Shown here piece by piece: positions 16,302 through 44,792 of a stretch of DNA of 44,792 bases. Numbering within the stretch: the first letter of the stretch is position 1; every line of letters begins with the position of its first letter. The translations under genes were made by a program, and so were the position numbers. The notes beneath the pieces are model-generated. The model searched no databases and was not told the origin of the DNA. It was given only the letters and a program-made list of their open reading frames with translations. Location: positions 1 to 44,792 of the IMG/VR virus record IMGVR_UViG_3300037137_000286; one strand, 5' to 3'. The stretch is from a virus.

Positions 16302-16550
16302 TCACTCCAAGTCGGCAAGCGCCTCTAGCAGAGTGATGCGGCCCTTACCGGCCGCCTCGAGTTCGAACACACGAGTCCGGTCGTCGGGGTGGTCCGTAAC
16401 GTACGCGATCGCCGCGGCGACTGTCGCATCGGCCGGATCGAACGTCGGATCGGCAGGCGAGGCCGAGATGACGCCGGCCATGCGTGTCGCGCCTCTCGGT
16501 GCCCTGCTGCCTCGTGATCGCATGTTCTGGTTCGACGTGATGATACCCAT
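16302..16550 (-). CDS. Small virion-region protein
   Basis: 82 residues from ATG 16550, sharing its A with the upstream TGA (TGATG). Basic N-terminus, then DPADATVAAAIAYVTDHPDD and a helical end (TRVFELEAAGKGRITLLEAL) of a type often seen in small proteins encoded near connectors in actinophages. Function not recognised. Confidence 0.58.
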   Translation of the reverse strand: MGIITSNQNMRSRGSRAPRGATRMAGVISASPADPTFDPADATVAAAIAYVTDHPDDRTRVFELEAAGKGRITLLEALADLE

Positions 16551-17407
16551 CAGGCGTGCGCTCCTGCCGCCCACGCGGCGCCGGACCAGTTGAACTTGAA
16601 CGTACCGATCGAGAAATACTCGCCCATCGCCCACGCCGTGAGCGGCAGAGCGACGTAGCCGAGCGCTGCGAGCTTCGCCGCATTCGGCGCGTCCTCGGCT
16701 GTGATCGTCGGCTCCAACAAGAACACGTCAGTCGGGGCCGTCTTGGCCCGCTCAGGAAGGTCAGCGCAACCCACCGTCGCAGCGGGCGGCTGCTGCGTCG
16801 TGACGACGTACCCGAACACGTCGCCCGTTGGGAACGTGGCGAGCAGCGGGTTGTCACCATGCGGGCCACGACCCCACGCTGCAGGTACGGCGAACCCTTG
16901 GCCGGCCAGCGACACGTTCAGTGGATTCGCCTCGATGGTGATATCACCGTCGAGCTTGCCGTTCTTCACGAACGGGACAGCGAAGTAACCCCACTCGGTC
17001 ACACCGCCAGCGCACGCGTCAACGCCGGTCTTCTTCGTCCACACCTCGAGAGCGAACCCGCCAGTCGGTTGCGCCGTCCCGAACGTTGCACCGATCGTGT
17101 CGGCCCCTGACACGACGGCGTTCGCGTCCGCGATGATGTCGAGAATGTCAGGGTCGACCTCGCAGAACTGCACCGATACGTTGACCCACTTGAGAATGTC
17201 AGGGTCCTTTTCGTTGATACAGAAGTCACCCCATGCGTTCTTCTGGACGTACTCGGCCCCGGCCTCCTCTTCGCGACCGATCGTGACGGTAATGAACCCT
17301 TCTGACACGACCTGCGAACACGTCGAGTACACCGGGATACCACACGAGTCCAGTCGGGTGATTCGGACTCGACGGCCCTTGATCGATCGAAGCTTCTTGG
17401 TTGCCAC
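16550..17407 (-). CDS. Major tail (tube) protein
   Basis: 285 residues from GTG 17407 with AAAGGA upstream. Opens with KLRSIKGRRVRITRLDSCG, then repeated strand patterns (SEGFITVTIGREEEAGAEYV, WVNVSVQFCEVDPDILDII, GFALEVWTKKTG, GYFAVPFVKNGKLDGDITIE) ending LPLTAWAMGEYFSIGTFKFN. This is the layout of actinophage tail tube proteins. Several Cys residues may form disulfides. Unusually it lies before, not after, the connector genes. Confidence 0.72.
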   Translation of the reverse strand: MATKKLRSIKGRRVRITRLDSCGIPVYSTCSQVVSEGFITVTIGREEEAGAEYVQKNAWGDFCINEKDPDILKWVNVSVQFCEVDPDILDIIADANAVVSGADTIGATFGTAQPTGGFALEVWTKKTGVDACAGGVTEWGYFAVPFVKNGKLDGDITIEANPLNVSLAGQGFAVPAAWGRGPHGDNPLLATFPTGDVFGYVVTTQQPPAATVGCADLPERAKTAPTDVFLLEPTITAEDAPNAAKLAALGYVALPLTAWAMGEYFSIGTFKFNWSGAAWAAGAHA

Positions 17408-18268: not shown

Positions 18269-20305
18269 TCAGGTCGGGCCGGTCGGACCGGTCGCTCCGG
18301 TGGGACCAGTGGGACCGGTGGGACCCGTCGGACCGGTCACGTCGCCGCAGCATGCGGTCACGCCATCGGTCGAGAGTGTCACGGTCACCTTGCGGCCCTT
18401 CGGACCACGACGGGCCAGCAGACGGAAGTCCTCCGTCCACGCCGCCGTGAAGTCGTTCGTCGCGTTCAGACGCGAGTCACGCAGCACACCGAGATCGATC
18501 GATCCACCGTTGCCCTCGATGATCGACCCGGCCGGATACATGAGGAACTGCGTCGTGCTCGGCCACACCTGCGACGGCGAACCGCCAAACAGCGGGAGGT
18601 AATCCTCCAAGAACTGAGGGCGCACGTTCCGGACGGCGAAGTGGCCTGCGATCTGAGCGTCCGACACCGAGAGCAGATCGACACCGGCTCGCATCGCGAG
18701 GTTCGAACGCAACATCTCCGTGGTCCACGACGGCAGCAGAATCTCGAGGACGACGTTGCCGCTGATCTTGTGCTCGGAGCGGTAGTCGGTCACCTGCAAC
18801 TCGATCGCTGACATGAGTTCACCGAACGAGTCGGTGCCCACAGCGGTCACGGTCACGGCGGCGCTGTTGCCGCTCGCTGCGATCTTGGCAATGTTGATCG
18901 CAGACATGCGGTGAAGGTGAGCGTTCATCACGAGCGACACGTAACGCCGTGTCAATTCTGGGTACGCACGGTCGGACAGGTTGCCGTGCTTCAAGCACAA
19001 CCCGTACGCACCGAGGCGAATGTCCGCCCACGTCGGGCAAGGGATCGTGAAACATCCCTTCTGGCGGGTGAACGTCCCGACACCGTTCGACACCGACGCT
19101 GCTGACTCGAACGTGAACGTATCCGAATCGGTCACACCGGTGACGGTCTGCGGGCCGTCAACGGCAACGTTGCCGATGTTGATATCCACCATGTCGCCCA
19201 CGACGACCAGGTGCGCTCCGGTCGTGTTGACCGTCGCCGTTCCACCACCGGCGTCCAGGTCCGCGATCACTACCGAGATATCGCTGTCTTGATCCTCGCT
19301 CCACGTCCACAGCGCACCATCGGCCGAGTCGATACCGATGTACGACGGAATGTTGATACCGCCGCGCTCGATACCGACCGACGGAACGTTGAGCAGCCCC
19401 GTCGCACCGTCGAGCGTCAAAAGCTCGTACATGTTCTGTGACGGCGTGCACCATCCGCCCGACGCCACCAGCGCTAGGCCCTTGCCCAACTGCGACGGGT
19501 TCGCCACTCGCTCGATGACGTCGAGAGCGCTCTCTCCCGACATGGCCTTGCCGATCACGTCGCCCTTCGCGTAGGGCAGGTTGAACTTCGCGACCGGGAC
19601 CCGTGCCGAATGATCGGCAAGGGCTCGGGCCTTGTCGTGCATCGCCACAGCGACCTGCGTCAGATCGATCGTCGCACCAGCGCCGACACCTGGAATGTCA
19701 GCCGCTGCCGTGATGACAACGTGCGGGTCGGCCTCCGACACACGAGGACGCACCGAGCGCCGCGACGTGGCCGCTGCCGACGCCGGCCGACGCTTCGCCG
19801 CACCAGCGCTCGCCGTCACAAGCTCCTTGCCTTCGACCGGCGCTGCCGCACCAGAGTCGTCGGGCTCCGCTGGCGCATCGCCGTCACCCGGGTCGTCGCC
19901 GCCCTCGTCACCGTCGTCGGGTGCGTCCGGGTCGGCCGAATCGTCCGCGTGCACACGGTCGCGCAGCGCGTCGATCTGCTCCTGCGCCAACGCCTCGGCC
20001 TCCGTGCGGTTCGTCCGCTCAGCCCGGATTCGATCCAGGCCCTCCGCGAGCTCCGTCATGGCCGCAACGTCCGTCGAGCCCTCATCGAGCAGACGGTCGA
20101 ACTCGGCTACAACCTGGTCCTCGAGTGCGGCGAGGTCGTCGTCGCTGAACAGGTCGTGATCGGTCAGGTCCTCTGCGATCGTCACAGGGGCCTCGTCGCC
20201 GTCGCCACCTGCGACAACCGGCACGCGGCTGCCGTCAGGGAATAGCCAGAAGCGACCGAGACGGATCGGGGTCATGGAATCGATGCTGCGGCGGGCTGCG
20301 TTCAT
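18269..20305 (-). CDS. Major capsid protein with N-terminal delta-like domain and C-terminal collagen-like tail
   Basis: 678 residues. ATG 20305 was chosen for AAGGAG upstream; an ATG at 20275 is in frame. Residues about 1-190 are acidic and helical (a delta/scaffold-like region expected to be removed by the protease encoded upstream). The HK97-type core is seen in the C-terminal half (RAYPELTRRYVSLVMNAHLH, FLEDYLPLFGG, PAGSIIEGNGGSIDLGVLRD). A beta-rich insertion sits near residues 360-430 (HLVVVGDMVDINIGN, DSDTFTFES). The last 21 residues are seven GXT triplets (GPT with one GAT), directly after a CC pair. Confidence 0.88.
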   Translation of the reverse strand: MNAARRSIDSMTPIRLGRFWLFPDGSRVPVVAGGDGDEAPVTIAEDLTDHDLFSDDDLAALEDQVVAEFDRLLDEGSTDVAAMTELAEGLDRIRAERTNRTEAEALAQEQIDALRDRVHADDSADPDAPDDGDEGGDDPGDGDAPAEPDDSGAAAPVEGKELVTASAGAAKRRPASAAATSRRSVRPRVSEADPHVVITAAADIPGVGAGATIDLTQVAVAMHDKARALADHSARVPVAKFNLPYAKGDVIGKAMSGESALDVIERVANPSQLGKGLALVASGGWCTPSQNMYELLTLDGATGLLNVPSVGIERGGINIPSYIGIDSADGALWTWSEDQDSDISVVIADLDAGGGTATVNTTGAHLVVVGDMVDINIGNVAVDGPQTVTGVTDSDTFTFESAASVSNGVGTFTRQKGCFTIPCPTWADIRLGAYGLCLKHGNLSDRAYPELTRRYVSLVMNAHLHRMSAINIAKIAASGNSAAVTVTAVGTDSFGELMSAIELQVTDYRSEHKISGNVVLEILLPSWTTEMLRSNLAMRAGVDLLSVSDAQIAGHFAVRNVRPQFLEDYLPLFGGSPSQVWPSTTQFLMYPAGSIIEGNGGSIDLGVLRDSRLNATNDFTAAWTEDFRLLARRGPKGRKVTVTLSTDGVTACCGDVTGPTGPTGPTGPTGATGPTGPT
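18272..18334 (-). repeat. Collagen-like GPT repeat at capsid protein C-terminus
   Basis: Seven consecutive Gly-X-Thr triplets encoded by GGN CCN ACN codons, ending at the stop codon. The same triplet type makes up most of the collagen-like protein at 30880. Confidence 0.85.
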
Positions 20306-20408
20306 GTCGGCAGCTACTCCTTCGTGGTGTCGTTGTTCGAAGTGTGGCGACCGAGCTAGGCCCGATTCGCAAGCCTGCGGGACTTCGCCGCGCTGACTCG
20401 TTGCCAGG

Positions 20409-20414
20409 ATCATA
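20409..20414 (-). promoter_or_regulatory. TATGAT -10 element of a possible capsid promoter
   Basis: Minus strand TATGAT differs from TATAAT at one position and stands after a hairpin and before the capsid ribosome site. No good -35 is visible. Confidence 0.4.
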
Positions 20415-20470
20415 CACACACGCCGTCACGCAATGCACGGACCATCGGACCCGCCACCGTTGACACGCGG

Positions 20471-28079: not shown

Positions 28080-28376
28080 GTCTCCGAAGTCTTCACGCGG
28101 GTCGATCAACGACACGAGGCCCGCGACGAGCGACCCCGACAGGGCCAGCCACGATCCAATAACTATCCGGTTCGCCGGCCACACGACCGTCACCCATCCG
28201 ACCAGCAGACCTATCCAGAACGAAGCACACCAGGAGCACCCGACAAGGTACGCGACCGACTCGGGCACACGGGCCTGCACCCAACGGCGCGGACGTTCCG
28301 TGAGAAAGTCGGCCGTAACCAAACGTGTCAGACGGGCCGTCGCTCCGAGAGCGAGCAGAATCAACCACCCGGTCAT
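28077..28376 (-). CDS. DUF1360-like membrane protein
   Basis: 99 residues from ATG 28376 (ATGA overlap with the adhesin stop). N-terminal helix (TGWLILLALGATARLTRLVT), then CSWCASFWIGLLVGWVTVVW and a third hydrophobic stretch (IGSWLALSGSLVAGLVSLI). The CxWCxSFW motif is typical of the DUF1360 family of small phage and bacterial membrane proteins of unknown function, often beside portal and capsid genes in actinophages. A holin role has been suggested for such proteins but is not established. Confidence 0.78.
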   Translation of the reverse strand: MTGWLILLALGATARLTRLVTADFLTERPRRWVQARVPESVAYLVGCSWCASFWIGLLVGWVTVVWPANRIVIGSWLALSGSLVAGLVSLIDPREDFGD

Positions 28377-30874
28377 GCAGCCCTCGAGCCCCAGAACGCA
28401 CCAACCTGCGGTGTCAAGAGTGCGATCACGCCATAGCAGATGTAGAACTCCAACGTCGTCACCGCGTCGTCGTCGCCTCGCTCCTGGAACGCGAGGATTT
28501 TGTCGCCTCCCAGGTTGTAGGCCGCTGTCGCGTCGGCGTTGCCCATGCCCGTGCCGAACAGAACGGTGGCACCACTCCACGACCCCGTTGTGACCGCCGA
28601 ACCGGTGACGGTGTAATGCTTGTAACGCACCTCGGTCGTGTTGCCACCAGAGCCCGCTTCGGCACCGGTGTAGAACAGGTAGCAACCGCGAGCGCCGTCG
28701 TCAACGACCCACACACCATCGACCGACACGCCGTCCATCGTGACTGCCGGGGTAGTGCACGTCGTCCAGGTCGCGCCGCTGTCTTGCGACACGCGCAGCA
28801 CGAGCGCACCAGTGTCGCTGCCCGCCGCCCCGTCAGAGTGCCCAAAGAAGATGTCGGCCGACGAGTTCTTGAACGCCGACCAGTTCGTCGGATGACAGTT
28901 CGTCGTCGCGTTGACCTGGACCGTCGACCCGTCGAACGAGATCGTCCCACCCGACCCTGAGACTCGACGGCAATACAACGTCCCGGCCGTCGCGTTGTCC
29001 GAAGCGATACCGAACAGCAACACCGAGTTATTTCCGAGCGACACACCAATCGTGTGGTCGGCCTGCGCTGCGGCGACACGCGCTGCCGCGCCACCGCCGT
29101 CAGCAATAGTGCCCCACGCCGAAGCGTCGTAGGCGTTCGTGGAGCGCATCACCCGGAAGATGTTGGTCGTGATCGCCGTCGTCAACCCGTGGTAGAACAG
29201 GAACCCGTCATCGCTGATCGTGAGAGCGCCTTGGCTGGTGGTGTCCATCGTCGTTGTCACCGACGTCTCAGCAGTCCAGCTGCCGATCGTCGCGCCAGAG
29301 ATGGTGCCCCGATAGAACCGGGTCACGGTCGAGGACGACTGGTAGGCGACGAACACGTGCTTGGTGCCCGCGTTGTTTCCGAACTGGACGCTCAGCCCGT
29401 ACATCTTCAGGGTCGTGTACGCCGTCGTCAGCGTGAACGTTGATTCGGCCGACCAGGCGGTGCCGTTGTATGAGCGGTAGTACAACGTCGTGCGAACGGC
29501 CGCACCACCGTTCTCGACTTCCTTGAAATAGAACATCCACCACAACGACCCGTCGTAGATCAGGCGAGGCCGGAACGCTTCAAAGTTGCGGGCGTCAGCA
29601 CCCGACGTCGGCCCGAACGTCTTGGACACAATGCCGTGCACGCCGTTGTTATCTTCCCAGTCGGCCTCGGCAGGGCTGTCGAGCGCGATGCCGGTTAGCC
29701 CTTTGGCCTCCCACGCTCCGCCCGCACCGTTGATCCTGAAATAGATTCGTGTCGCGGGCCACGCATATCGGATCGACACCGACCAGTCGAACTCCTTGTC
29801 GTTGTCGGCAATGTTCACCGTCTGCGACGACGCCGTGGCTTCAATGTAGACACCGTTCGTGTCAGCGCCCGTGAGCACCCGCGCCACAGCGTTGCCCGCC
29901 GTGTCGGCACCGTTGGCGTAGCGGGGCATGTCCTTGAGCGTCGACGCGATCGCAGGGACCGTGACCCACGTGCCCGACCAGTCGGTCTTGTATTGCAACG
30001 ACAGGGTTTCGGTCACGTTCGCATTGGCTCTCAACGTGGCCCGCAGCCGCAACACGACGTTCTTGTTCTGGGCGGCGGTCAGCACCGGGATCGTGTTCTC
30101 CGCGGCGAGTGCTGCGCCGAGGCCGACACCATCGGCGTACCAACGCCACGCCGTCACTGCTCTCGCCGTCGTGGCTTGCGTGTAGGTGACGTAGCCGACA
30201 ACGCAGTCAGCAGCCGCGCCAGTCGTCGGGTTGTACGTCTGCGTCGCTGTGCCGGTCACGACCTTGTACTGCGCGGCAACGGTCGTGGACGTTCCCAACG
30301 TGCCAGAGTCGGACTTGCTCGTGAGTTGCGCCGACCATGACCCGTTCGACGTGTCGGAGTCCAACGTGACCGTGGCATTCGTCGCACCCGAATACCCGGC
30401 GATGATGATGTCGCCCGACGTGACGTTCGCCGCTGTCGTGTGCGTCGGGGCAGCGGTCGACGCTCCTGTCGTGCCACCCGTCGCGCTGAACGCGAGCGCG
30501 AACCCTGGATCGGGCTGGACCCGAATGACACAGGCGCTCATCCGGTCTGACGCCGACGAGTTACATTGGATCCAGTCGGTTGCTTCGACCGGGGCGGTCA
30601 GCAGGAGTTCGTATATGCCTTGCGTGATACCGGCGTCGGCCGCACCGGGGTCCCAGTTCTGTTGACGGCGGCTCGTGACTGTGCCCTTGCCGGTAGTCGA
30701 GTTGATCAACGTTGGAGCAGTCAACGACTGCACCCCAGACGAACCGCCGTTGTCTTGGCTGAGCACGATGACCAGAACGTCACCTGCGCTGGCGGCGATA
30801 CCGACCTGGAACCCGAACGAGGTCGCGGCCGCGCTGCTGGAGGCGGCAGCACCGAGTGTGGCGGTGATGGCCAC
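28373..30874 (-). CDS. Large beta-rich virion adhesin with propeller-like C-terminal half
   Basis: 833 residues from GTG 30874, six bases after the collagen gene stop. The N-terminal half has repeated beta sandwiches rich in Ser, Thr and Ala (DVLVIVLSQDNG, VIRVQPDPGFALAFSATGG, NVVLRLRATLRANANVTETL). From about residue 410 the pattern repeats blade-like units (FRPRLIYDGSLWWMFYF, TLYYRSYNGTAWSAESTF, KHVFVAYQSSSTVTRFYRG, QGALTISDDGFLFYHG, LRVSQDSGATWTTC, GCYLFYTG), as in sialidase-type beta-propellers that bind glycans. No catalytic triad is assigned. Probably a head or tail decoration that binds carbohydrate. Confidence 0.68.
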   Translation of the reverse strand: MAITATLGAAASSSAAATSFGFQVGIAASAGDVLVIVLSQDNGGSSGVQSLTAPTLINSTTGKGTVTSRRQQNWDPGAADAGITQGIYELLLTAPVEATDWIQCNSSASDRMSACVIRVQPDPGFALAFSATGGTTGASTAAPTHTTAANVTSGDIIIAGYSGATNATVTLDSDTSNGSWSAQLTSKSDSGTLGTSTTVAAQYKVVTGTATQTYNPTTGAAADCVVGYVTYTQATTARAVTAWRWYADGVGLGAALAAENTIPVLTAAQNKNVVLRLRATLRANANVTETLSLQYKTDWSGTWVTVPAIASTLKDMPRYANGADTAGNAVARVLTGADTNGVYIEATASSQTVNIADNDKEFDWSVSIRYAWPATRIYFRINGAGGAWEAKGLTGIALDSPAEADWEDNNGVHGIVSKTFGPTSGADARNFEAFRPRLIYDGSLWWMFYFKEVENGGAAVRTTLYYRSYNGTAWSAESTFTLTTAYTTLKMYGLSVQFGNNAGTKHVFVAYQSSSTVTRFYRGTISGATIGSWTAETSVTTTMDTTSQGALTISDDGFLFYHGLTTAITTNIFRVMRSTNAYDASAWGTIADGGGAAARVAAAQADHTIGVSLGNNSVLLFGIASDNATAGTLYCRRVSGSGGTISFDGSTVQVNATTNCHPTNWSAFKNSSADIFFGHSDGAAGSDTGALVLRVSQDSGATWTTCTTPAVTMDGVSVDGVWVVDDGARGCYLFYTGAEAGSGGNTTEVRYKHYTVTGSAVTTGSWSGATVLFGTGMGNADATAAYNLGGDKILAFQERGDDDAVTTLEFYICYGVIALLTPQVGAFWGSRAA

Positions 30875-34245: not shown

Positions 34246-34821
34246 ATGCCAAACTATCCCAACTGGTTCTTGCAGGTCGGGGCCGACGACACGTTCGCCC
34301 GCCACCTGTCCCACCTTGCCGGTACGCCGGCCAGAGTCCTGCAGATCGGGGCGTTCACAGGTGACGCCTCGGTGTGGCTGCTCGACAACATCCTGACGCA
34401 CCCCGACGCCCACCTGGTCGACGTCGAACCGTGGACAGGTTCAGGCGAGGTCGAACACGACCAGTTCGACTGGACCGTCGTAGAACTGGTCTACACGCTC
34501 AGAATGATCGGGCAGCGCAAGGTATGGGCCGTCCGCTCGACCAGCGCCGAGTTCTTCGCCAACTGCGATCACGACGACCTGTTTGACTTCATCTACGTCG
34601 ACGGCGACCACCACGCCCTCACCGTTCTGCACGACGGCCTCCAAGCGCTCGACCATCTCAGACCGGGCGGCATCCTCGCGTTCGATGACTACACATGGGG
34701 CCGACACCTCCACGTCGCTGATCGACCCGCCGCCGCAATTGACTTCATCCTCGACGTCTGCGCCGAAGGACTCGACCTGCTCGAACGCGGCAACCAAGTA
34801 TGGGTCCGGGCTCGCGCATGA
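34246..34821 (+). CDS. SAM-dependent methyltransferase
   Basis: 191 residues; ATG 34246 lies six bases after TATAGT and has no ribosome site, so it is probably leaderless. Rossmann-type class I pattern: RVLQIGAFTGDASVWLL (SAM-binding motif I), HLVDVEPWTG (motif II), FDFIYVDGDHHALTVLHDGL and LRPGGILAFDDYTWG, as in the Methyltransf_24 group that often acts on sugars. Next to a glycosyltransferase it probably methylates the transferred glycan. Confidence 0.8.
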   Translation: MPNYPNWFLQVGADDTFARHLSHLAGTPARVLQIGAFTGDASVWLLDNILTHPDAHLVDVEPWTGSGEVEHDQFDWTVVELVYTLRMIGQRKVWAVRSTSAEFFANCDHDDLFDFIYVDGDHHALTVLHDGLQALDHLRPGGILAFDDYTWGRHLHVADRPAAAIDFILDVCAEGLDLLERGNQVWVRARA

Positions 34822-35870
34822 GGATCGCTGTCTACTGCATCACCAAGAATGAGGCCGCACAGATCGAAGGATGGTGCGAGAGCGCCGCCGACGCTGACGC
34901 CCTGGTGGTCGCGGACACTGGGTCGACGGACCTCACCGTCAAGATCGCCCGCACAATGGTCCGCACCGTCGTCCACGAGATCACCGTCGACCCGTGGCGT
35001 TTCGACGTGGCCCGTAACGCCTCCCTCGCCCTCGTCCCGGCAAACATCGATTACTGCATCTGTCTCGACGCCGACGAACGGCTGCAACCCGGCTGGCGCG
35101 CCGCCCTCGAAACCATCACACCCGACGTGACACGGCCCCGCTACCGCTACGTGTGGAACTGGAATGCGGACGGCACACCAGGGCTCACCTACACGGGCGA
35201 CAAGATACACACGCGCCGCGGGTATCGCTGGGTTCACCCCGTCCACGAGGTCTGCGTACCCACAGCACCAGAGGTCGGGGCGTTCGTGGCCGGCCTCGAA
35301 ATTCACCACCACGCCGACAACTCGAAACCACGCCCGTATCTGCCGCTGCTCGAACTCGCGGTCCGAGAGGACCCGCACGACCCACGCAACGCCCACTACC
35401 TCGGCCGCGAGTACTTCAACACCGGCCAACCAGCACGCGCCGCCTATGAACTCAAACGACACCTCGCACTCCCGGGTGCGACGTGGGCTCCTGAGCGGGC
35501 GAAGTCGATGCGCCTCCTGGCCCGCTGCGAACCGGCGCTCGAGGAAACATGGCTCTTGCGTGCCGCGGCTGAGGACCCTGGCCGGCGCGAAGTCTGGCTC
35601 GACATGGCGAGCATGTACTACCGGACGGGCTCGTGGGAGCAGTGCGCCGCCGCCGCCGCCCGCTGCCTGTCCATCGTTGAGCGTGGCACCGAATACCTGG
35701 CCGAGGCCGAACCGTGGGGCGCTGCCCCGTACGACCTCGCTGCGATCGCCGCATTCCGGCTCGGCCGGTTAGCTCAAGCTGTCGGGTTCGCAGAGCAGGC
35801 GTGCGAACTAGCACCAGGCGACAAGCGGCTCGCCGCCAACCTGAAACTCTGTCACGATGCCCTGGTCTAG
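34818..35870 (+). CDS. Family 2 glycosyltransferase with C-terminal TPR-like region
   Basis: 350 residues from ATG 34818 (ATGA overlap with the methyltransferase). GT-A fold: RIAVYCITKNEAAQIEGWCE, nucleotide-binding VVADTGSTDLT (DTGSTD at 33-38), DVARNASL, and the metal site CLDADERL (D84-x-D86), then RYRYVWNWNADGTPG and HPVHEV. Residues about 200-350 are helical TPR-like repeats (HYLGREYFNTGQPARAAYEL, WLDMASMYYRTGSWEQCAAA). Such SunS/OGT-like arrangements can glycosylate proteins, with the TPR part selecting the substrate. The collagen-like protein is a plausible target. Confidence 0.85.
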   Translation: MRIAVYCITKNEAAQIEGWCESAADADALVVADTGSTDLTVKIARTMVRTVVHEITVDPWRFDVARNASLALVPANIDYCICLDADERLQPGWRAALETITPDVTRPRYRYVWNWNADGTPGLTYTGDKIHTRRGYRWVHPVHEVCVPTAPEVGAFVAGLEIHHHADNSKPRPYLPLLELAVREDPHDPRNAHYLGREYFNTGQPARAAYELKRHLALPGATWAPERAKSMRLLARCEPALEETWLLRAAAEDPGRREVWLDMASMYYRTGSWEQCAAAAARCLSIVERGTEYLAEAEPWGAAPYDLAAIAAFRLGRLAQAVGFAEQACELAPGDKRLAANLKLCHDALV

Positions 35871-36351
35871 CGGCGTCCTGCGCTCCGTGGCGGTCGAGCA
35901 CATGAATCTGCTGCAACCGGCCACGATCCTCGATATCGGCGCAGGAGCGGGCACCTGGCAGACCTGGTGGCGTTTCGGCCGCTGGACCGCTGTCGAAGTG
36001 TTCGAGCCCTACATCGCCCGGTTCGGGCTCGCTGAGCGGTACGCCGAGATCATCGTCGGTGACGCCACCGTGTGCGACCTCGGCGGACCGTACGACATCG
36101 CGATACTCGGTGACGTCATCGAACACGTCACAGACCCGTTCGCCCTCGTCCAACGAGCCCGACAGGTAGCCCGCATCGTGATGGTGCAAGCACCGGTCGG
36201 GTACTGGCCGCAAGGACCAGAGGAAGGCAACCCGCACGAGTGCCACCTCGTCACGATCGAGGCCGACCAGCTGCGCTCCTGGCCCGGACTCGACGCCATG
36301 TACGTCCTTGACGGCATCGCCCTCGCGTTCTACACCGGGCTGCTACCCTGA
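35857..36351 (+). CDS. Second SAM-dependent methyltransferase
   Basis: 164 residues from ATG 35857, overlapping the glycosyltransferase by 14 bases. Motif I is ATILDIGAGAGTWQTW, then WTAVEVFEPYIARF (motif II) and YDIAILGDVIEHVTDPFAL (motif IV, with the xGDVIEHV form of Methyltransf_11/23 enzymes). Shorter than the first methyltransferase and not closely similar, so it may methylate another sugar position. Last gene of the operon. Confidence 0.78.
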   Translation: MPWSSGVLRSVAVEHMNLLQPATILDIGAGAGTWQTWWRFGRWTAVEVFEPYIARFGLAERYAEIIVGDATVCDLGGPYDIAILGDVIEHVTDPFALVQRARQVARIVMVQAPVGYWPQGPEEGNPHECHLVTIEADQLRSWPGLDAMYVLDGIALAFYTGLLP

Positions 36352-42704: not shown

Positions 42705-43667
42705 TCAGAGCAGGTCAGAGCGGTGACACGAAAGAAATTCGGCCCGTTTCGTCACGTCCTCGGCCAGCACGCCCCGGTACGTCGAAGTCATCATCGGGGC
42801 CTCCTTGCGCACGCCCCGGTTCGACATGCACGAGTGCTGAGCATCGATCGCCACCCCGACACCGAGCGGTTCGAGATGGGCCTCGATCGCGTCCGCAAGC
42901 TCAAGGGTCAAACGCTCCTGCACCTGCAGACGCCGGGCATAGCAGTCCACCAGACGGGCGAGCTTCGAGAGGCCAACGACACGCCCGGACGGAACGTAAC
43001 CGACCGTGGCGACACCGACGAACGGCAACATATGGTGCTCACACAGCGACGCGAACGGCACCCGTGCGACCACCACCAGATCGCCAGCCGCTGACGGAAC
43101 GTCGAACGTGGTCGACAGGATCGCACCCGGCACCTCCCGGTAGCCCGCCGTCAACTCCGACAGGGCCTTGACCACCCGGCGAGGCGTGTCGAGCAGACCA
43201 TCACGAGTCGGGTCCTCTCCGATGAACTGCAACAGACGGGTCACCGCGTCGACTGGTGCGCCGTCCTCACGTTCCCACGGGAAGCGCAGCCATGCGTGGC
43301 GCAACTCTGCGAACGGGCACAAGGTCTTCGGGCTCCACGGCTTGCGGTACAACGCGTCGACGTAGTGCCCGTTCGACTGGTACGCCTCCAACGTCCGCCC
43401 CGTGTCGATCAGATCATCGACCACGAGCGTGTCAGCGTCCGGGTGCTCGACCAGCGGCAGACTGAGCCCCTGAGCGACCATCACAGCGACCGGCGCTCCA
43501 CCCGTGGGCACCCCGTACACCGACCGGATCGGTTCGCCCCGCCACCGCTGCACGAGGTCGGCCGCGGCGTGGCGAATGTCCGCCCACGTCAACGACTCAC
43601 CGTTCGCAGCGTCGGGGTCTTGCGACCGGAACATCGACACAACGCCGTCATGCTCGACTGCGGTCAT
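42705..43667 (-). CDS. folE: Phosphoribosyltransferase-GTP cyclohydrolase I fusion
   Basis: 320 residues from ATG 43667, two bases after the queE stop. Residues about 25-120 form a type I phosphoribosyltransferase-like domain with the PRPP motif LVVDDLIDTGRTL (81-93) and SVYGVPTGGAPVAV. Residues about 138-320 are FolE: ASLCEHHMLPFVG with zinc Cys209 and His211/212, SGRVVGLSKLARLVDCYARR, and HSCMSNRGV with Cys280. All zinc ligands are present. FolE makes dihydroneopterin triphosphate from GTP, the first step toward 7-deazaguanines. The added domain is unusual; it might act on a deazaguanine base, but its substrate cannot be read from sequence. Confidence 0.85.
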   Translation of the reverse strand: MTAVEHDGVVSMFRSQDPDAANGESLTWADIRHAAADLVQRWRGEPIRSVYGVPTGGAPVAVMVAQGLSLPLVEHPDADTLVVDDLIDTGRTLEAYQSNGHYVDALYRKPWSPKTLCPFAELRHAWLRFPWEREDGAPVDAVTRLLQFIGEDPTRDGLLDTPRRVVKALSELTAGYREVPGAILSTTFDVPSAAGDLVVVARVPFASLCEHHMLPFVGVATVGYVPSGRVVGLSKLARLVDCYARRLQVQERLTLELADAIEAHLEPLGVGVAIDAQHSCMSNRGVRKEAPMMTSTYRGVLAEDVTKRAEFLSCHRSDLL

Positions 43668-43669
43668 GG

Positions 43670-44389
43670 TTATCTTCCTCTCTCCATGCCCCACACCTGG
43701 ACGTGCAATCGGGGCGAGATGTTCAGACGGCGCGCCAGGGCCTCGTCCGCGATCTTCGACAACGACACTGACAGTTCGCCCTCGGTGCGACCCTCGGGCA
43801 TGATCCAGCGTTGATCGTGCGGCACACCGCACAAGTCCATGAGCCCGTCAGCGTCACGGACCTCGCTTGCATCGTGACACACGATCTTGAACACCGCACG
43901 AGGATGAGTCGCCCACCGCTCGAGGACCGGGATCACCAGCGCGTTGTGCCCCGCCTGAGCCGAGGGCAGTTTCGGGCTCACAGAGTAGTGCGCTATCGGG
44001 TCGTAGTCGGACGGCGGCGGGCGAGTGCCGTTCGTCTCGACGTGCGTGTCGACGCCGTACAAGTTCAGCAGGCGGGCGGCGAGCTCCACCACGCCGGCCT
44101 TCTGGATCATCGGCTCACCACCCGACACGACACAGATCGGTACGCCGAGCTTGGCTACGTGGTCGGCCACTTCCTCGATCGTGAGGTTCTGACAGTTCTC
44201 TTCGCGTGGGTACTCGGTGCCGTTCATGCCGGTCGTGTCCCACGTGTACGCCGTGTCGCACCAGCGGCAGTGCAGGTTGCACCCGTAGAGCCTGACGAAC
44301 GTGCACAGACGGCCACAGAACGGCCCCTCGCCCTGGACGGTCGCCCGGTCGTAGACCTCGTTCACCCGTAGCTGAATCAATGAGTCCAT
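43670..44389 (-). CDS. queE: 7-carboxy-7-deazaguanine synthase
   Basis: 239 residues from ATG 44389 (a GTG at 44416 is also possible), overlapping queD by 13 bases. Radical SAM motif in RLYGCNLHCRWCDTAY (CxxxCxxC), preceded by VNEVYDRATVQGEGPFCG, the typical QueE opening. Later PICVVSGGEPMIQ (GGE motif), DTHVETNGTR and HYSVSPKLPSA match the family. QueE turns 6-carboxy-tetrahydropterin into 7-carboxy-7-deazaguanine. Complete by length. Works between QueD and QueC; queC is not in this window. Confidence 0.9.
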   Translation of the reverse strand: MDSLIQLRVNEVYDRATVQGEGPFCGRLCTFVRLYGCNLHCRWCDTAYTWDTTGMNGTEYPREENCQNLTIEEVADHVAKLGVPICVVSGGEPMIQKAGVVELAARLLNLYGVDTHVETNGTRPPPSDYDPIAHYSVSPKLPSAQAGHNALVIPVLERWATHPRAVFKIVCHDASEVRDADGLMDLCGVPHDQRWIMPEGRTEGELSVSLSKIADEALARRLNISPRLHVQVWGMERGR

Positions 44390-44792
44390 GTCGCACTGCA
44401 CGTTGGCGTCTCCCACACTCGGACGGTGGATAGTTCTGGATAGTCGCGCACGAGCAGCTGCGCGATCGTGGTCGCCAAGAATTCGGCGGTCGGTGGCGCG
44501 TCGAGCAAGATCACACCGGGGCCACCGTGGTCATCGTTCCGGTTGAACACCTGCTGCATTGCCGTCGCTCGAGGGTCGTGGCGCGACATGACAAACCGAT
44601 GATCGAACACGTCGATGACCTGTCGCGCAACGACTTCCTTCAACCGGCCGAAGTCGACCAGCATCCCGTTCTCCGGGTCGCCTGGCATGTCGAAGTCGAC
44701 TGCGCCGGCCAGCGTCACCTCGAAGCGGTATCGGTGCCCGTGCGGCCGATAGCACCCGCCTTCATGGTCCGGTAGGCAATGGCCCATGTCGA
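44377..44792 (-). CDS. queD: 6-carboxytetrahydropterin synthase (5' partial)
   Basis: The N-terminus is cut by the window edge: the frame is open upstream of an internal ATG at 44787, and the family's first zinc His lies in DMGHCLP. Seen are GGCYRPHGHRYRFEVTL (catalytic Cys and two zinc His), MLVDFGRLKEVV, the VIDVFDHRFV Asp-His pair, PTAEFLATTIAQLL and VRVWETPTCSATW. QueD converts dihydroneopterin triphosphate, the FolE product, into 6-carboxy-tetrahydropterin. With folE and queE it forms a 7-deazaguanine operon. Confidence 0.88.
   Translation of the reverse strand, partial: DMGHCLPDHEGGCYRPHGHRYRFEVTLAGAVDFDMPGDPENGMLVDFGRLKEVVARQVIDVFDHRFVMSRHDPRATAMQQVFNRNDDHGGPGVILLDAPPTAEFLATTIAQLLVRDYPELSTVRVWETPTCSATWTH

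Follow-up and report, generated by a model that had tools for sequence, protein, structure and literature searches.

The window analyzed here is an entire IMG/VR virus record of 44,792 bases (IMGVR_UViG_3300037137_000286), and our subject is its major capsid protein, which ends in a collagen-like tail of seven Gly-X-Thr (GxT) triplets, together with a glycosyltransferase (GT) encoded elsewhere in the window that may act on that tail. The capsid open reading frame (ORF) comprises an N-terminal scaffold-like region of ~200 amino acids (aa), a shell domain with the HK97 fold, and the tail. Its end reads TACCGDV-T(GPT)4-GAT-(GPT)2-stop, with the TGA stop (18269-18271) immediately behind the 21 tail residues, so that an earlier, sequence-only reading, which had placed seven Gly-X-Thr triplets directly before the stop, was correct in coordinates, triplets, and stop alike. 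Because the gap behind the ORF is short and normal, with a ribosome-binding-like site ahead of the next start codon, we see no sign of a frame artifact at the ORF end. The tail is encoded as a tandem 9-bp array and has Gly at every third residue, as in collagen. It also draws on the same triplets, GPT and GAT, as a 789-aa collagen-like protein of the same genome, a match that had been pointed out before. The features discussed are collected in Table 1.

Table 1. Features of the window bearing on the capsid tail and its putative modification
Feature	Position	Strand	Remarks
Major capsid protein gene	18269-20419	minus	716 aa; phrog_777 (E 4e-115); AF2 model with HK97 fold
C-terminal tail, (GPT)4-GAT-(GPT)2	18272-18334	minus	Residues 696-716; absent from ~98 relatives; pLDDT ~50
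Cys-Cys closing the conserved capsid C terminus	18347-18352	minus	Near relatives stop there or just after
GT2 + TPR glycosyltransferase, 356 aa, proposed enzyme	34800-35870	plus	PF00535; TPR; phrog_13126; TPR fold
Methyltransf_24 family methyltransferase beside the GT	34246-34821	plus	PF13578, E 1e-13
Methyltransf_23/11 methyltransferase beside the GT	35857-36351	plus	
Collagen-like fiber protein, 789 aa	30880-33249	minus	PF01391; Thr at 57% of Y positions
Major tail protein, without a GxT tail in the window phage	16550-17407	minus	phrog_792

The phrog_777 "major head protein" profile covers capsid residues 439-696 (E 4e-115). Since PDB sequence searches with the capsid protein (phmmer and hmmsearch) gave no relative, its fold was predicted with an AlphaFold2 (AF2) model of residues 190-716, a single chain built from 59 sequences with a mean predicted local distance difference test score (pLDDT) of 74. 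The model matches the HK97 prohead (Z 14.7), which identifies the protein as a major capsid protein, and also the capsid protein of Che8 (Z 12.3). The assignment made from the DNA letters thus holds, and with it should hold the expectation that every capsid subunit bears a tail. No Pfam family matched the capsid protein, tail included; PF01391 matched the 789-aa protein only. Model residue 490 (protein residue 679) aligns with residue 269 of 273 of Che8, and the tail begins 17 residues later, 14 residues behind the last position aligned to the HK97 C terminus. In the model, the capsid C terminus lies where the HK97 fold ends, at the same place as that of Che8, whose virion proteins are reported to be glycosylated (PMC12363180); the tail is therefore likely to be exposed on the surface, and it is predicted to be disordered (pLDDT ~50).

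As the sequence-only reading had proposed, we examined relatives of the capsid protein for C-terminal GxY repeats; ~98 of them, encoded on viral contigs, were read to their stops, and none has such a repeat. The nearest relatives end in DGVTACCP, DGVTACCA, or DGVTACCPIA, and because they stop right after this conserved end, the tail is an addition behind a complete capsid C terminus. The Cys pair earlier described along with the tail is indeed present, but it belongs to this conserved core. Isolate phages gave 848 matches, mostly actinophages, the best-scoring of which align only as far as about residue 694; this comparison covers a subset of the matches, and its low-complexity filter could hide tails. 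Two pattern scans of viral contigs, from which the record of the window was apparently excluded, likewise contained no phrog_777-type capsid protein with a GxY tail.

Seven perfect G-x-T triplets are not a matter of chance, as none of the 6,581 ORFs in 99 related loci ends in such a tail. They might nonetheless have arisen neutrally, from a 9-bp repeat that expanded recently or from a collagen-gene fragment that was copied onto the capsid gene end, the free C terminus tolerating the addition; the tandem array, and the occurrence of the tail in one genome but not in ~98 relatives, agree with such an origin. The codons point the other way. Departures from the majority codon fall on 7 of 21 third positions versus 1 of 42 first and second positions (Fisher p = 0.0013), and because this drift is mainly at third positions, the amino acid pattern of the tail looks maintained, although the drift could predate a copying event. 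Tails of the same type also appear on many other, unrelated proteins of shells and tubes, in parallel with a GT, as described below, and we regard a neutral origin as unlikely.

To find tails on other phages, we scanned viral contigs for ORFs with four G-x-(T/A) triplets at their end; collagens and chance ORFs were returned as well. Among the tailed virion proteins were Phage_cement_2 proteins (L102 and L118), phrog_909 head proteins (L116, L126, L130, and L139), major tail proteins (L106 and L124), and others. In L106, a PF05065 capsid protein, unrelated to that of the window, ends in GATGATGES and the tail-tube protein of the same phage is tailed as well. Next to the tailed genes lies a small GT2 gene, whose product of ~214 aa is without TPR. 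In L106, for example, it directly follows the capsid gene, and in L116 (decoration gene 1948-2319, GT gene 1289-1933), L126, L151, and L162, it directly follows the decoration gene. Overall, tails occur on at least five capsid families (including phrog_10/PF05065, phrog_544, phrog_29/PF03864, phrog_422, and phrog_3270), two decoration families (phrog_909 being one), and several tail-tube families (including phrog_117, phrog_885, and phrog_88). Eleven loci hold two tailed proteins each, often with nearly identical tails, as if these had been copied within the genome or shaped by one enzyme; in L245, L235, L253, and L257, near-identical C-terminal tails are shared by a capsid and a tail-tube protein that are unrelated but belong to the same phage.

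In the reciprocal test, loci were fetched by the small GT alone (80 viral and 22 from bacterial genomes, a few of them seed contigs again). A structural ORF with a GxT tail was present in 66 of these 102 loci versus 0 of 99 control loci, which surround relatives of the window capsid protein. Searched against isolates, the small GT returned Methanobacteriales viruses and one partial match only. None of the 22 Methanobrevibacter loci with a distant GT contained a GxT-tailed structural ORF. In these 22 Methanobrevibacter or archaeal loci (L276, L277, and L279-L298), the relative of the small GT2 (~38-43%) usually stands behind an ORF of ~90 aa.

The gain and loss of tail and GT could be followed among homologs of the decoration protein, for which the core without its tail served as the query. 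Of 80 homologs, 47 have both tail and GT and 28 have neither (7 of these on short contigs). One is tailed without a GT, on a contig that ends soon after, and four (L363, L365, L371, and L372) are untailed yet have a GT; these last are apparent exceptions, explained by a distant GT placed behind the capsid gene. Untailed decoration proteins end in GVNA, GVNS, GVNE, or similar. Support was too low on a tree of nothing but the short decoration core, which yielded 3 pairs, whereas a tree of the neighboring capsid proteins yielded 8. On the latter, tail and GT each change 9 times, and all 8 independent, supported pairs are concordant (p = 0.008). Across 77 tails, Thr occupies 79% of the Y positions, and X is Ala, Glu, Val, Ser, or Pro.

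This pattern of a constant Thr at Y and a variable X is more in keeping with an acceptor site than with a helix-forming one. The sequence-only reading had raised the possibility that the tail docks the large collagen-like protein by co-trimerization at threefold positions; more broadly, the tails of three neighboring subunits might form a short triple helix at the threefold or quasi-threefold positions of the shell. Gly at every third position and repeats that match those of the fiber are what such an arrangement would call for, and collagen-like trimers of gp12 are seated on the capsid of SPP1 (PMC6316719). The window tail, however, has 7 triplets only, with Thr instead of hydroxyproline at Y, and is predicted to be disordered in the single-chain model. 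Seven GPT triplets are short for a free-standing triple helix. Elsewhere, X varies freely, tails of merely 2-3 triplets exist, and such tails accompany a GT gene; relatives with a large GPT collagen protein have an untailed capsid, and PHROG matches assign the 789-aa protein to tail fibers. Nothing specific speaks for co-trimerization with the fiber, and we judge a helix or docking role to be improbable. What survives of the proposed function shared with the fiber is the matching repeats, which more likely make the two proteins substrates of one enzyme than partners in docking.

The enzyme in question lies ~1.5 kb from the fiber gene, flanked by two methyltransferase genes. It resembles SgtA of Clostridioides difficile (358 aa, GT-A domain plus 4 TPRs), the gene for which adjoins bclA3 and which adds beta-O-GlcNAc (O-linked N-acetylglucosamine) to Thr of GPT repeats on synthetic BclA3 peptides, short peptides being sufficient (PMC7157674). 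The window GT, likened to SgtA by architecture, has the same size (~355 aa) and layout, a GT2/GT-A domain followed by C-terminal TPRs with an intact DxD motif, and it too is encoded near a GPT-repeat gene. The difference is that the substrate of SgtA is a long collagen of the spore surface, whereas here the additional acceptor would be a 7-triplet viral capsid tail. The DxD residues are invariant among phage homologs. GmaR was the best sequence match among solved glycosyltransferases in the PDB; the AF2 model is weak in the GT half, and the TPR part alone was used. NCBIfam has no name for this GT or for the small GT2.

Of 49 relatives, 3 encode a homolog of the window GT (51-55% identity), and all 3 are among the 4 relatives with GxT repeats (Fisher 2e-5 over 50 records, window included), a figure that overstates the evidence, as the three GT-bearing relatives are close to one another. 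The actinobacterial lake phage DSL-LC01 has two GPT collagen genes with a 55% homolog 3 kb behind them, and in a human-gut phage fragment (MT838491), a 47% homolog lies directly behind a collagen-like ORF. Counting the window GT and five homologs, a Thr-rich collagen-like gene was nearby in 6 of the 6 cases inspected. PF00535 was dropped as a marker of tail-linked enzymes in favor of close GT homologs, given that GT2 genes occur in many untailed relatives too. The DSL-LC01 genome (L300; OQ999401.1) contains 64 GxT repeat matches, and one of its regions holds the GT2-TPR homolog, a second GT, methyltransferases, a UDP-galactopyranose mutase, and an annotated tryptophan halogenase.

An acceptor for glycosylation accounts best for these tails because Thr is kept while X and length vary, because the tails sit at the C termini of the most abundant surface proteins, and because they come and go with a GT. 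For the window itself, we think it probable that the capsid tail is an O-glycosylation acceptor, modified on Thr by the SgtA-like GT. The tail would be a short, disordered, surface-exposed acceptor for Thr O-linked sugars. The GT would transfer a sugar to Thr of the Gly-Pro/Ala-Thr triplets of fiber and capsid tail alike, the fiber likely being its main substrate; that it acts on the capsid tail we infer by transfer from the tails of other phages, and GlcNAc would be the sugar by analogy with SgtA. The two flanking methyltransferases may modify the glycan, with O-methylation a possible role for the Methyltransf_24 enzyme, and each shell would carry hundreds of sugared tails, the sugars of which might serve in shielding, stability, or attachment. 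An unmodified tail might instead serve as an adhesive or spacer that binds the host surface, mucus, or particles. Its low complexity and its likely surface position, as placed by the model, would suit that role, which nevertheless leaves the constant Thr and the link to a glycosyltransferase unexplained, and we consider it very improbable.

Several points weigh against glycosylation of the window capsid by this enzyme. The tail has so far come from a single metagenomic contig, and its glycosylation is a prediction from genes. The GT gene is ~14 kb from the capsid gene, on the opposite strand and adjoining the fiber gene, and the enzyme may act on the fiber only. Three relatives with the same GT have untailed capsids, one relative (G035) has GxT repeats without a window-type GT, and jumbo phages (PaBG) encode remote relatives of the GT with no collagen gene annotated nearby. 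The tail-linked GT family of other phages differs from the window GT and is smaller, and tailed loci L108, L123, L129, and L138 contain no PF00535 match in the record, so the GT link is not universal. Tail and GT could also travel as one linked cassette, which would inflate their correlation, an objection tempered by the finding of tails also on tail-tube genes at a distance of 1-2 kb.

To our knowledge, the known examples of phage virion glycosylation are a few mycobacteriophages and lack a recognizable sequence tag. Papers that quote Freeman et al. 2023 state that mycobacteriophages (Che8, Corndog, and Myrna) glycosylate their capsids and tail tubes by means of phage-encoded glycosyltransferases (PMC12363180), and that the glycans are located at the C termini of capsid and tail-tube subunits (PMC12619734). 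The window phage is alike in encoding a glycosyltransferase, and its capsid C terminus takes the same structural position as that of Che8. The Che8 capsid, however, is of another family, and neither it (ending in VVFNKTGS) nor the Che8 tail tube (EQYSDGS) has a GxT repeat. SPP1 gp12 likewise places a collagen-like sequence on a phage shell, but as a separate trimeric protein on the hexamers (PMC6316719), whereas the window tail is part of the capsid ORF. The rumen-phage cassettes (for example L106, L116, L139, L216, and L245) share with the window C-terminal GxT tails on capsid, decoration, or tail-tube proteins in a genome with a GT. They differ in using mostly GAT or GET rather than GPT, and in having the ~214-aa GT2 without TPR adjoin the tailed gene. 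For SPP1 gp12, we know of no link to a glycosyltransferase.

Each element by itself is known: glycosylation of capsids, collagen-like proteins of phages, and glycosyltransferases specific for GPT. We lean toward the view of a portable C-terminal tag for glycosylation that is in use among phages infecting several host phyla. In this view, GxT repeats are grafted onto whichever proteins cover the virion (several capsid families, decoration proteins, and tail tubes) and are gained and lost with a GT, and the window represents an independent version of actinophage type, in which the repeats are GPT and the enzyme is SgtA-like. In the literature searched, which left subscription journals mostly outside, collagen-like GxT tails of capsid or tail-tube proteins were not described as glycosylation tags. 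If the view is right, a GxT tail and a GT would predict from sequence which phages sugar-coat their virions, on which residues, and with which enzyme; the function of the sugar coat would become testable; and the collagen-like ends of phage shell proteins would be explained without a collagen fold.

GT8 and CDP-glycerol phosphotransferase genes also occur in clusters of tail and GT genes. A CDP-glycerol glycerophosphotransferase (PF04464) and a GT8 (PF01501) stand beside a tailed virion gene and a GT2 (L139:4379-5302 and L182:2387-3100), hinting at larger virion glycans, possibly bearing glycerol phosphate.

Elsewhere in the window, an 833-aa protein encoded between the collagen-like fiber and portal genes (28373-30874, minus strand) has neither a Pfam nor a PHROG match and is possibly a virion adhesin. 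A GTP cyclohydrolase I gene (42705-43832, minus strand), whose N-terminal stretch weakly resembles a phosphoribosyltransferase, and a radical SAM gene (43670-44416, minus strand) are probably 7-deazaguanine (queuosine/archaeosine-type) modification genes.
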